A DNA stretch of 12,291 nt from an uncultured Pseudomonadota bacterium (GTDB lineage: Bacteria > Pseudomonadota > Gammaproteobacteria > Burkholderiales > SG8-39). The notes below the pieces were generated by a model. It was given only the letters and a program-made list of their open reading frames with translations, was not told the origin of the DNA and did no database searches. Made by a program: the position numbers and the translations under genes. Shown here one piece after another: positions 6,629 to 10,779 of this stretch (positions are counted from its first letter, which is position 1; each line of letters begins with the position of its first letter). The stretch covers positions 1 through 12,291 of the forward strand of contig CAITSH010000493.1 in NCBI GenBank assembly GCA_903895005.1, read 5' to 3'.

Positions 6629-7762
6629 TCAGCTCTGGCGCTGCAGTCCGGCGTAACGCTGGTACAAGGCGTGGTCGTGGCAATGCGTCAGGAAATCGAG
6701 TGTTTCGACGGTCTCTGCCGCGAACTCGCCGAAGTCGTTGCGACCGCCTCGCCAGGGCATGATGACCACCTCGCCCAGGATCGCCTCGTACAACCATTCG
6801 GGCTGCGGAAAAAAGCACACCCGGTCCCACGGGTAGCGCCGCGCATAAGCGATGGCGGCAAGGTGGGCGGTGTCAAACACCATGAAACCCGATTCGATGA
6901 AGTTCCACGGCGCGACGCGCGTGCTGAGTGCGGTCCGGCCGGCGGCGCGCATGTCGGCGGTCACATGCAGCAGATCAAGGCGCGTGAACACATCGAGTTC
7001 CAGCACCACCACGCTGCGATAGCCTGCGGCAATCGCGGTCAGCACGCCGGTGCTGATGGAACGCCCCGGGCCGTCCTTGCCGCGCCCGCTCATCGGGTGG
7101 CCGATATTGGACGGGAAGCTCACCGCATTGAAGCGCCCATCAAGTGCGACGGCGTGCGGTGCATCCTGCAGCAGCCGGCTTTTTTTCACCGCCTGCGAAA
7201 AGTGCAGCGCCTCCCATTCCGCCGCAGCGGAACCGTCATCGACAAGCAGCCAATCCACGCCCGGATTGAAGCGCTGCAGCGACGCAGTCCAATATGTGAC
7301 GAGGGCGTGCTTTTGCGGACCGTCGATGTAAGCCGGGCACACCACCAGCACATCGCGGCCGGGCACCAGCGAGAGGGCACCGGCCTGCGCGCAATATTCC
7401 GATTGCGCGGCGCGAATTTTTTTCGTCCACTTCGGGCTGACCTCGGTTTTGAACGACTCAGCCACCAGCAGCGTGGTCGCGCGCGCCAGGTCGGGTCTGC
7501 CCTGGGCCAGGAAAAGACGCACCAGTTGCAGCACATCGGCTGCACTGCCGGCCACCTCACTGCGCGCGATGCGCTGGAACAGCGCGAACGCGCCGGGCCA
7601 GTCGCCCTGTTCCTGCAGGGCATTCATTCGAAGCAGGATGGCACCGAGATGGCCCGGCGCACCGGCGAGCACGCGCGCGTAAGTGGCGGCCGCCGTCGCG
7701 GCATCGCCTGCGCAATGTGCGGCAAGGCAGGTCGCCAACTCGGATTCGGTGTCGCTGCTCAA
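6629..7762 (-). CDS. helical-repeat protein with glycosyltransferase-like domain
   Basis: About 377 residues from a TTG start at 7762. Residues about 5-125 are Ala/Leu-rich paired helices with TPR character (AATAAATYARVLAGAPGHLGAILLRMNALQEQGDWPGA split over two repeats). The C-terminal part looks like a GT-A glycosyltransferase: a strand then LLVDDGS (Asp175-Asp176), and VVVLELDVFTRLDLL with a DxD-like Glu-Leu-Asp at 255-257, then NFIESGFMVFD (287-297). Start choice is uncertain. The frame is open to 7894, but that TTG lies inside a terminator hairpin. GTG codons at 7861 and 7852 have no ribosome site. The 7762 TTG has only a weak upstream AGGA. A -10-like TACAAT lies near 7815. No secretion signal is visible. 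Sugar donor and acceptor are unknown. Confidence 0.7.
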   Translation of the reverse strand: MSSDTESELATCLAAHCAGDAATAAATYARVLAGAPGHLGAILLRMNALQEQGDWPGAFALFQRIARSEVAGSAADVLQLVRLFLAQGRPDLARATTLLVAESFKTEVSPKWTKKIRAAQSEYCAQAGALSLVPGRDVLVVCPAYIDGPQKHALVTYWTASLQRFNPGVDWLLVDDGSAAAEWEALHFSQAVKKSRLLQDAPHAVALDGRFNAVSFPSNIGHPMSGRGKDGPGRSISTGVLTAIAAGYRSVVVLELDVFTRLDLLHVTADMRAAGRTALSTRVAPWNFIESGFMVFDTAHLAAIAYARRYPWDRVCFFPQPEWLYEAILGEVVIMPWRGGRNDFGEFAAETVETLDFLTHCHDHALYQRYAGLQRQS

Positions 7763-7879: not shown

Positions 7880-7926
7880 GACACAAAAAGACAAGGCCCC
7901 GGCGACTCGCGTCTCCGGGGCCTTGT
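7880..7926 (-). terminator. strong intrinsic terminator after the 27-codon gene
   Basis: ACAAGGCCCCGG (7891-7902) and its exact complement (7915-7926) form a 12-bp stem. On the minus strand the 12-nt loop can fold further, with GAC/GTC pairing around a GCGA (GNRA-type) tetraloop. The stem is followed on that strand by CTTTTTGTGT. The plus strand has no U-tract after it, so it acts leftward. It sits 24 nt after the small gene's stop codon. Confidence 0.9.
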
Positions 7927-7949
7927 TACTGCTGAGGCTCGTGCCGGCC

Positions 7950-8033
7950 TTATAGGCTGGCGGTCATCCCTACAGAAAAGGTTGATCCGCAGTGTGAGCC
8001 GTGCTGGCCGGTTAAGCCTATGGGACTGATCAT
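7950..8033 (-). CDS. 27-residue small protein of unknown function
   Basis: An ATG at 8033 opens 27 codons ending in TAA: MISPIGLTGQHG, then SHCGST, then FSVGMTASL. The centre is Gly/His/Cys-rich (His11, His14, Cys15) and there is no transmembrane segment or signal peptide. I do not recognise the peptide. The case for translation is context: an exceptionally long Shine-Dalgarno 7 nt upstream, a promoter 33 bp upstream of the ATG and a terminator just downstream, with nothing else encoded between. Codon use is unlike the neighbours, with ATA, TTA, CTA, GTA, GGA and two TCA codons in a high-GC genome. It could be a functional small protein, an attenuation leader peptide for the gene at 6629-7762, or a structured RNA whose ORF is incidental. 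Confidence 0.6.
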   Translation of the reverse strand: MISPIGLTGQHGSHCGSTFSVGMTASL

Positions 8034-8034
8034 T

Positions 8035-8049
8035 GGATCACCTCCTTTC
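8035..8049 (-). promoter_or_regulatory. 15-nt perfect Shine-Dalgarno of the small gene
   Basis: The minus strand GAAAGGAGGTGATCC is the exact complement of the bacterial 16S rRNA 3' end (GGATCACCTCCTTTC). Most genes pair over 4-6 nt; this one can pair over 15. Spacing from GGAGG to the ATG is 7 nt, the optimum. It decides the start of the 27-codon ORF. Confidence 0.85.
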
Positions 8050-8065
8050 AAAGTTGTGAGAGTGC

Positions 8066-8094
8066 AGTCTAGCCGCGGTCCGCGGCGCTGACAA
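8066..8094 (-). promoter_or_regulatory. sigma-70-like promoter of the 27-codon gene
   Basis: On the minus strand TTGTCA (8094-8089, 5/6 match) and TAGACT (8071-8066, 4/6 match) are spaced by exactly 17 bp. Transcription would start near 8059, giving a leader of about 26 nt and an RNA of about 180 nt ending at the terminator. Confidence 0.65.
8072..8086. promoter_or_regulatory. perfect palindrome filling the promoter spacer (operator candidate)
   Basis: GCCGCGG-T-CCGCGGC is a 7-bp perfect inverted repeat around one base. It occupies 15 of the 17 bp between the -35 and -10 of the small gene, a position where a repressor, or a MerR-like protein, would control the promoter. A purely G/C palindrome in GC-rich DNA can also arise by chance. 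Confidence 0.45.
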
Positions 8095-8124: not shown

Positions 8125-8928
8125 TCAAGAAGGCCGGCCCGGCTTGGCTGCGCTGAAGATCAGCCGGTTCAGGCAAAAGAACCAGTCCCCCTCCGCGCTT
8201 CGCGAACGCATGTCCTCTTCCCAGTCCTTGATCTCGCCGGCGTCGATGCCGCCCTTGCGGGCGCCCCCGCGTACGGTGTCTATGAGACCGGCCACCCAGG
8301 AGTCCGGATCAAAGCGGGTTTCAATGATGGGCACCGCTGTCACTGCGTCGAGGCGCAATCCGGCTGCGGCGATCAGCGCATGCAACTTGCGCGGCAGGTC
8401 GGCATGGGCGAACTGCGCCGCTGCGCGCGCCGCGAGCAGCCGGCGCATGCGTGCATCATCGGCCGATTTCCACACGCAGGCGTCCCAGTCGGTGTCCAGC
8501 AACAGCAGGCGACCCGCCGGGCGCAAGACCCGCGCCACCTCGCGCATCGCGCCCGCGATATCAGGCACGTAGCAATAGGCTTGCGAGGCGGTGACAAAAT
8601 CAAACGAGGCATCAGGAAAATTCAGCACCGCGGCATCACACTGGCGGATAGCGACGATCTCCTGGAGGCCGTCGCGCGCCACCCGGTCGAGGCAGGCTTG
8701 CACGGCGTCCGCGCTGGCATCAATGCCGGTAATGCGCCCTGCAGCGCCGACCTCGGCGGCGAGCTCGCACACCAAGTGTCCGGCGCCGCAGCCCACATCC
8801 AAGCCTCTTTCACCCGGGAGTGCGGCGATCGCCGCACGCAGGCGCACGCGCTGCTCGATAATTTGGGGGGATGAATACACCCGGTCGAGATTGGCGATTT
8901 TTTTCGCGTCAAACGTAATCAAGCGCAC
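8125..8928 (-). CDS. class I SAM-dependent methyltransferase (UbiE/Methyltransf_11-like)
   Basis: 267 residues with a Rossmann methyltransferase core: motif I LDVGCGAG (43-50), acidic Asp70 in GIDAS ending strand 2, then RQCDAAVLNFPDASFDFVTAS, and VARVLRPAGRLLLLDTDWD, the usual 'RVLKPGGRL' region. Substrate is unknown; this family includes quinone, small-molecule and natural-product methylases. The GTG at 8928 has GGAGG only 2 nt upstream, too close. The in-frame TTG at 8922 is 8 nt from it and may be the true start, with no change to the domain. It stands 31 bp upstream of the small gene's promoter on the same strand, without an obvious terminator between, so read-through into the small gene is possible. 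Confidence 0.88.
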   Translation of the reverse strand: MRLITFDAKKIANLDRVYSSPQIIEQRVRLRAAIAALPGERGLDVGCGAGHLVCELAAEVGAAGRITGIDASADAVQACLDRVARDGLQEIVAIRQCDAAVLNFPDASFDFVTASQAYCYVPDIAGAMREVARVLRPAGRLLLLDTDWDACVWKSADDARMRRLLAARAAAQFAHADLPRKLHALIAAAGLRLDAVTAVPIIETRFDPDSWVAGLIDTVRGGARKGGIDAGEIKDWEEDMRSRSAEGDWFFCLNRLIFSAAKPGRPS

Positions 8929-9905: not shown

Positions 9906-9943
9906 GCCGCCGCGCCTCCAAAACGCCGGCGGCTGTTTTGTTT
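9906..9943 (+). terminator. intrinsic terminator of the small exported-protein pair
   Basis: GCCGCCG (9906-9912) pairs with CGGCGGC (9927-9933) around a 14-nt loop and is followed by TGTTTTGTTT. It lies 45 bp after the second small gene and reaches the stop codon of the convergent gene. Confidence 0.65.
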
Positions 9944-10779
9944 CAGCGCGTCGCCGACCAGTTGCCGGCCGGGCCGTCACCCGCAACCGGCTTGAAACTA
10001 CCTTCGATGACGTCGCCCTTCACCACGCCAGTGAACTCGCTTGAACCCACGTTGAAGTAAATGCGCTCGCCCTGGATGCGGCCCTTCTCCGTTGGCTTGC
10101 CGCCGATCGCGCCCTCGAAGGTTTGGAAGGCCTGCGTCACGGCCAGCGGCCCGATCGAACTCTTCCAGCGCCCCTCGATGCGCGCCGGCACGACCCAAAG
10201 ATAGGCGATGCAATGCGGTCCGCAGTTGAGGTCGGCCGCCTCGTCGGGCTTCCAGTCTCCCATGCGGAATGTGTTGGAAACAATGCGCGTGCCGGCCTTC
10301 AGATTGAGAATGGACGGGCGCAGGCGCAGATTGAGTTCGGGCAGCAGGAACAGCGTGATGACGGACGCCTTGGTCAGATCGGACTGAAAAATATCGGCCT
10401 GTACGAACTGCGCCTTGCCCTCGACGCCCGCCTTTTGCGCCTCGCGTTTTGAAAACGTCACCATATCGGGGTTGAATTCAATGCCGGTGGCACTCACACC
10501 GCGCCGGGCTGCGGCAATCACCGTGCGGCCGTCACCCGAGCCCAGGTCCATCAACACATCAGCGGGCGTCACTCTAGCCATATCGAGCATTTTTTCAACG
10601 AGGTCGCCGGGCGACGGGACCCAGATGACGTCCTTGCCGGCCTGGTAAAGACTGGGTTTGTAGTCCTGCTGCGGCGCCGGCGCCGGTTGCGCCTGCGCGT
10701 TGCCCGCGCCGGTGCAAATGCCGACGCTTAGTAATACTGAAGCAAGGCCACCGCCCGCCACTTTGAAAAATCGAATCAT
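9943..10779 (-). CDS. signal-peptide-bearing class I methyltransferase-fold protein
   Basis: A 278-residue product. MIRFFKVAGGGLASVLLSVGICTGAGNAQAQ is a clear signal peptide (cleavage near residue 30). A Rossmann methyltransferase core follows: DLGSGDG motif I (78-84), acidic Glu101 in TGIEFNPD, QADIF (128-132), then LFLLPELNLRLRP and GTRIVSNTFRMGDW. Beyond about residue 195 there is a beta-rich tail (EGRWKSSIG to GNWSATR) outside the methyltransferase core. Two cysteines (186 and 190, CGPHC) could form a disulfide or metal site. The ATG at 10779 has only a weak AGGG site. The open frame extends to 11109 but that part has repeat sequence and no family similarity. SAM is not expected outside the cytoplasm, so activity and location are open. 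Confidence 0.83.
   Translation of the reverse strand: MIRFFKVAGGGLASVLLSVGICTGAGNAQAQPAPAPQQDYKPSLYQAGKDVIWVPSPGDLVEKMLDMARVTPADVLMDLGSGDGRTVIAAARRGVSATGIEFNPDMVTFSKREAQKAGVEGKAQFVQADIFQSDLTKASVITLFLLPELNLRLRPSILNLKAGTRIVSNTFRMGDWKPDEAADLNCGPHCIAYLWVVPARIEGRWKSSIGPLAVTQAFQTFEGAIGGKPTEKGRIQGERIYFNVGSSEFTGVVKGDVIEGSFKPVAGDGPAGNWSATR

Follow-up and report, generated by a model that had tools for sequence, protein, structure and literature searches.

The stretch of DNA analysed here (the window; 12,291 nucleotides) carries on its minus strand a small and complete transcription unit, which lies between a methyltransferase gene and a gene with a TPR match. The unit and its two neighbors are laid out as follows:

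8125..8928, minus strand: upstream neighbor, a SAM-dependent methyltransferase (Methyltransf_11), outside the element
7885-8094, minus strand: the complete unit, i.e., promoter, leader, 27-codon ORF and terminator
8066..8094, minus strand: sigma-70-type promoter, -35 TTGTCA (8089-8094), 17-nt spacer, -10 TAGACT (8066-8071)
8034..8049, minus strand: extended Shine-Dalgarno sequence (SD) GAAAGGAGGTGATCCA, 16 nt complementary to the 16S rRNA 3' tail
7950..8033, minus strand: ORF MISPIGLTGQHGSHCGSTFSVGMTASL, 27 codons plus TAA (ATG at 8033, stop TAA at 7950-7952)
8006..8019, minus strand: conserved 5' strand AGGC..CCGGCC, codons for G6, T8 and G9, complementary to 7935-7949
7975..7988, minus strand: internal mimic of the 16S tail, GGATCAACCTTTTC, beginning with the codons GGA TCA and complementary to the gene's own SD
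7935..7949, minus strand: conserved 3' motif GGCCGGCACGAGCCT, immediately 3' of the stop codon
7885..7926, minus strand: intrinsic terminator, a 12-pair stem plus a T run (CTTTTT)
6629..7762, minus strand: downstream neighbor with a TPR match, its start inferred from relatives, outside the element

Between 7500 and 8500 one promoter-like site was found, compared to 0.1 expected from shuffles, and the positions of promoter and terminator fit a predicted transcript of about 175 nt. The predicted transcript (7885-8059) folds at -76.3 kcal/mol versus -53.0 for shuffles (z -5.6, 0/200 shuffles as good), a large share of this energy being contributed by the terminator. The terminator stem begins about 24 nt past the stop codon; a simple terminator scan did not list the site at 7885-7926, although the fold shows its 12 pairs. 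A preliminary description of this DNA had placed a promoter, a reading frame and a terminator here, and all three are present on the minus strand. The ribosome site that it had proposed is likewise present as an exact complement of the 16S tail, with a length of 16 nt, not 15 as given there.

The 16S tail in question (...GGCTGGATCACCTCCTTTCT, of which GAAAGGAGGTGATCCA is the exact 16-nt complement) was read in genome G649, the one genome among seven examined that yielded a 16S gene, and is thus the tail of a relative, not of the window's own genome. The extended leader pattern is more than chance: AGGAGGTGATCCN{0,6}ATG occurs in 61/299 genomes of one phylum, in 88/249 genomes of the order of G112 and in 26/300 genomes of the order of G256, while AAGGAGGTGATCCN{0,5}TG occurs in 47/98 genomes of the family of G649, and the reversed controls gave 1/299, 0/249, 0/300 and 0/98. 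Small genes account for 16/30 (L013-L042), 14/26 (L049-L074) and 10/29 (L078-L106) of the pattern loci that were read; the remaining loci lie inside or ahead of other ORFs, long or very short. These controls speak against one alternative explanation, an ordinary, well-expressed small gene whose long SD arose by chance or serves strong initiation. Such a gene would accord with the observation that the same leader precedes longer ORFs in the order (33-80 residues, many with signal-peptide-like starts), yet the long site of rreB, a known gene of this layout, reportedly weakens translation, and the explanation appears very improbable. To take the extended site as a sign of the "high-output" transcript suggested by the preliminary description is not supported: in rreB it is reported to impede translation.

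The leader has been met in other contexts as well. A second group in the same order shares it (AAAGGAGGTGATCC, then mostly GATGTCTAGT) ahead of ORFs of 33-52 residues starting with M/VSSR (L080, L081, L083, L095, L099-L103, L111, L126-L129, L131, L133); a signal-peptide-like stretch often comes next in these ORFs, and a cacggcatgtgccg-like inverted repeat lies just upstream. Five further loci, from other genomes of the order (L164, L165, L169, L170, L171), are longer, signal-peptide-like small genes of 41-80 residues where complete, in which the extended SD stands before GTG, so the leader is not limited to very short ORFs. Eleven viral contigs carry GGAGGTGATCCAATGATC with other ORFs of 45-185 residues.

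The closest relative of the element is an orthologue in genome G825 (L155), which encodes MISPTGLTGQNGSHCGSTFAVRMTASLSV and shares 23/27 residues with the ORF of the window. Both promoter hexamers and their 17-nt spacing are identical in the two, while the letters of the spacer differ; leader, ORF, 3' segment and terminator are nearly identical, the terminator arms change together, and the outer sequence differs. The same genes surround L155: the downstream gene is 73%, the second methyltransferase 76% and the MFS transporter 86% identical, with a TctC gene sitting between the element and the downstream gene. The methyltransferase at 8125..8928 has no match within 12,000 bases of L155. It is this orthologue that places the window in or near the family of G649, which had been reached through relatives of the window's second methyltransferase. 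The protein with the TPR match (6629-7762) belongs to a small family of 7 database proteins at E <= 0.001; a search for this gene in 250 genomes from the order of G256 came back empty, an outcome that carries no weight. Several genomes of the order (G529, G558, G570, G599, G646, G650 and others) contain many relatives of the window's DOT1-like methyltransferase (9943-10770), some of them adjacent to one another. The nearest plasmid-borne relatives of the window's FAD monooxygenase and LysR protein are from Massilia putida (60.6% and 54.3%), followed by those of Microvirga and Rhizobium, and the FAD protein is 59 and 57% identical to two genomes in the order of G112.

Beyond this pair, the element belongs to a larger family, which was captured by a covariance model (R1) of 39 relatives, with the window, L155 and the terminator left out. 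R1 matches the window at full length (86.2 bits, E 1.4e-26, positions 1-135 of 135). Over 70 loci, 41 score between 58 and 133 bits, 39 of which are the sequences that R1 was built from; below these 41, the highest score is 22. By R1 scores, a member is carried by 35/98 genomes of the G649 family, and G870 makes 36. Loci found twice (L117 duplicates L155, L166 duplicates L136, and L167 duplicates L151) were counted once; G834:C193, G858:C112, G861:C128, G865:C74 and G873:C180 are not among the loci read, and the place in G870 is L196. In a search of 76 of the 98 family genomes, 29 carried one strong match each, a thirtieth and weakest match (L201) being coding-like sequence with no small gene; R1 recovered no members with a diverged SD in these 76 genomes, but such absences weigh little because many of the genomes are fragmentary. 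Members also exist beyond the G649 family. The pattern AAAGGAGGTGATCCN{0,2}GTG occurs in 15/200 genomes in the order of G256, and 8/15 of these loci are of family type: L166 and L167 were already known, and L159-L163 and L168 are in genomes outside the 98. In most other relatives the ORF specifies 23-34 residues of the type V/MRDHQG.TG...GST..RS.AG, usually from a GTG start. One member (L130), whose leader reads AAAAGG rather than GAAAGG, was for this reason excluded from A1 and A2 as well as from the codon tests.

The leader run complementary to the 16S tail is 15 nt long in 17, 16 nt in 2 and 17 nt in 22 of 41 members, with a 15-nt minimum by construction, as members were gathered with GAAAGGAGGTGATCC. 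Among relatives, the stem of the terminator shows covariation (helix 6, both-side changes in 5/10 pairs). At L063, L064, L065 and L116 the small gene is followed by two or more tandem copies of a terminator-like hairpin. The 16S gene of G649 has its best identity to a 16S gene of the plasmid collection at 89.9%, with Burkholderia and Caballeronia on top, so that G649 and its family are taken to be betaproteobacterial; the label rests on this one 16S gene, and family and order include the genomes used. Comparison of these loci shows that the predicted promoter, the leader, the frame, the position of the stop, the mimic and the putative terminator are conserved at the nucleotide level in a discrete betaproteobacterial family. 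The preliminary description had named conservation of frame, promoter and terminator in relatives as one check on its claim, and the self-contained transcription unit, being conserved together with all three, is not refuted by it.

What selection acts on in this family is a separate question. Under one explanation, the element is a micropeptide gene: the 27-residue product would be the point and the extended SD would merely drive its translation. Frame, start and stop are indeed kept in the 41 members read, L155 shares most residues with the window, and for this pair pN in the ORF is 0.068, i.e., low like that of the MFS neighbor (0.083). However, synonymous sites are held too: pS in the ORF is 0.10 versus 0.45, 0.52 and 0.57 in three neighboring genes, which gives a pN/pS of 0.67 on six changes compared to 0.18-0.29 in these genes. 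Across 35 members, pN/pS amounts to 0.94 (251/595 pairs, those with at most 30 differences), so purifying selection on amino acids, i.e., a ratio well below 1, was not found across the family, and codon positions 1, 2 and 3 are equally conserved, with entropies of 1.08, 1.12 and 1.06 bits. Peptide lengths range from 23 to 34 residues with variable ends. The best-kept residues (G6, T8-G9 and G16-S17) fall where the RNA itself is conserved and codons are rare: CAA GGC nnn ACC GGC stands opposite GCCGG..GCCTT just past the stop, and GGA TCA is the other conserved segment. The micropeptide explanation is therefore unlikely, and the "new small protein" considered in the preliminary description is not supported. 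The His/Cys/Gly center emphasized there fares no better across the family, as SHC is kept in L155 and absent from the other aligned members. Probably, the peptide itself is not the product under selection, and ribosome binding, rather than the 27 residues, is what matters. In the betaproteobacterial family the amino acids drift while the leader, the frame, the place of the stop and the in-frame mimic are kept. This cautions against assuming that every short ORF that is translated yields a functional peptide.

In the window, the mimic of the 16S tail (GGATCAACC) is in frame and begins 45 nt downstream of the first ORF base, and its GGATCA is complementary to TGATCC in the leader. The exact hexamer GGATCA occurs in 27/35 members. 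The glycine codon of the mimic is GGA at 34/35 sites, versus 11/134 other glycine codons in the same ORFs, and the serine codon is TCA at 28/33, versus 8/119 elsewhere in these ORFs; the p values of these codon counts are a guide only, because the sequences are related. The mimic is in frame in 35/35 members and in 6/6 further ones; its spacing takes seven values between 36 and 54 nt, each divisible by three (where several GGAT were present, the one nearest nt 45 was taken; L142 has GGGT). The stop codon lies -1 to +3 nt from the 3' motif in 30/35 members and 7, 10 and 14 nt away in three, and in two the motif was not found, with a loose motif list used for this search.

The energies of mimic-SD duplexes surpass those of shuffles by a modest margin. 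Given the alignment alone, RNAalifold pairs GGAUC with the SD. In the window the duplex of mimic and SD reaches -13.9 kcal/mol (z -1.66, 13/200 shuffles as good); in the minimum-energy fold of the window the SD pairs with the region of the start codon, not with the mimic. Compared to shuffles, the duplex has a mean z of -1.15 over 35 members (below -1.64 in 10/35), of -0.89 over 14 loci of the second betaproteobacterial group (3/14), and of -1.39 over 29 presumed alphaproteobacterial loci (9/29), where "alphaproteobacterial" is presumed for L014-L074 because they resemble CC2171 as well as rhizobial and sphingomonad types, L001 being the one that is named. In L040 and L041 the duplex is worse than in shuffles and there is no mimic-like stretch. 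The SD is invariant in the members, which were mostly gathered by it, and the pair is therefore beyond the reach of covariation. The long-range P1/P2 helix (8006-8019 with 7935-7949) is invariant too and showed no covariation above shuffles, 110/500 of which pair as well. A different stretch occurs in presumed alphaproteobacterial loci: GGRGCARCCT, complementary to AGGAGG, stands near the end of the ORF in the 12 loci picked from the 29 for encoding QP near their end, and its proline codon is CCT in 12/12, versus 36/275 in the longest ORFs of those loci.

From the layout and its conservation, we favor with modest confidence the reading that the element gives rise to a small mRNA of its own, about 175 nt long, which would grip the 30S subunit through its 16-nt extended SD and could be closed by the 16S-tail mimic within its frame. 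In this closed form, GGAUCA.. would pair with UGAUCC of the leader and hide the ribosome site. A free 30S subunit with a mature 16S tail, which offers the longer and perfect match, could out-compete the mimic and open the RNA. Ribosomes would then translate the short frame, pass over the mimic and thereby keep the RNA open, with termination beside the conserved 3' motif. Opening would probably alter the stability of the RNA or its availability to partners, and the RNA might thus respond to, hold or buffer free 30S subunits. The preliminary description had offered a "dual RNA/peptide regulator" as its other option, which comes close to what the data favor.

The element could also be a regulatory RNA that acts in trans, with the 3' motif (GCCGGC..GCCTTAGCAG) or the 16S-like loop pairing with other mRNAs and the ORF only tuning the life of the RNA. 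This would suit a stand-alone gene with one strong match per genome in 29/76 genomes, a strongly conserved 3' motif, and the observation that no same-strand downstream ORF cluster, among the 12 top clusters, comprises more than 7/35 loci. An ORF cluster seemingly shared by 17 loci was set aside as apparent only, because it mixes strands and antisense ORFs. The usual core of a Shine-Dalgarno sequence is AGGAGG. GGATCA complements the unusual UGAUCC of this very gene, not that usual core, and the conserved frame and stop point to translation; a trans-acting role as the main function is accordingly rather doubtful.

The literature searched, which covered few subscription papers, yielded no description of a betaproteobacterial family of such mRNAs, and a search of plasmids by DNA and by peptide yielded no match to the element. 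An exact 21-base pattern led, in genome contigs, to a single locus (L001/L013) from a Hyphomonadaceae MAG, whose layout is similar (MISGISKSAMALLGHAGVGATSSAG). This locus has the same start AAGGAGGTGATCCAATGATCAGT, a 25-residue ORF and then a hairpin; it was set aside as an orthologue, since R1 matches its leader only (16.7 bits). Of the 30 presumed alphaproteobacterial loci read, 22 were searched with R1, and their matches span only about 30 nt, almost entirely the leader, the exceptions being L016 (89 nt, 11.8 bits) and weak off-site matches in L054.

Among Rfam families, RF01867 (Caulobacter sRNA CC2171) aligns with the window over model positions 1 to 159 (27.7 bits, E 2.8e-4), below its gathering score of 75. 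With the window, its consensus shares GAAAGGAGGUGAUCCAGUGUCUCAU and a 3' hairpin, whereas the middle of the window is unaligned and RF01867 is classified as an sRNA. The model also matches 8/9 presumed alphaproteobacterial loci at E 0.5 or better (26.9-60.2 bits), the ninth (L016) giving no match at that level. At curated thresholds Rfam finds nothing in the window and nothing in 16 presumed alphaproteobacterial loci; in other words, the CC2171 family at its present threshold recognized 0/16 of the loci of the class that it was given. A match of sodF_sRNA in the window (28.3 bits, threshold 46) is terminator-like and was set aside. An RF01867 locus is among the genome-wide predicted sRNAs of Mesorhizobium huakuii (PMC5596092). 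Dual-function small RNAs with a short ORF are also represented by rnTrpL/peTrpL, which is leaderless, derives from a tryptophan attenuator, and has a translated ORF of 14 residues (PMC10117765). The element is like it in being a small RNA with a short ORF and differs from it in having a leader of its own and no origin in a tryptophan attenuator. A copy of the 16S tail is not known in rnTrpL/peTrpL.

One may tentatively suppose a widespread RNA class that senses free, matured 30S subunits, in which the leader is an antisense of the 16S tail, a copy of that tail in the coding sequence closes the RNA, translation is kept for the effect of the ribosome on the RNA rather than for the peptide, and the alpha- and betaproteobacterial versions were built independently. 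Just as tentative is the idea that the same self-closing device recurs throughout this class, with GGATCA.. in one version and GGRGCARCCT or GGATCGCCTTC in others. For an orphan class, the supposition provides a testable idea, namely an RNA that measures free small subunits.

The closest known systems are rreB of Bradyrhizobiaceae and rreR of Rhodobacter/Roseobacter, which are reported by Hahn and colleagues (2017) to have an extended SD, to associate with 30S subunits and to be weakly translated, the class reportedly being confined to alphaproteobacterial orders. Both are reportedly stand-alone mRNAs of about 165 nt with a GTG or ATG start, a very short ORF and an SD whose complementarity to the 16S tail spans 16-17 nt, and no role is known for these alphaproteobacterial small mRNAs and their over-long ribosome site. 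The threshold of at least 16 nt of complementarity between the SD and the 16S 3' end is reached by the window with 16 nt, the tail being taken from a relative. Compared to rreB and rreR, the element is alike in its predicted stand-alone layout, its 16-nt SD to the 16S tail and its very short ORF; it is unlike them in that its family is betaproteobacterial, with an apparently different ORF and 3' part. The peptide is thus as unfamiliar as the preliminary description found it, but the kind of gene had already been described. Measured against that description, the element is of the same kind as rreB and rreR and appears to form a separate family, and a separate betaproteobacterial family allows a comparison with the alphaproteobacterial one that neither gives alone.
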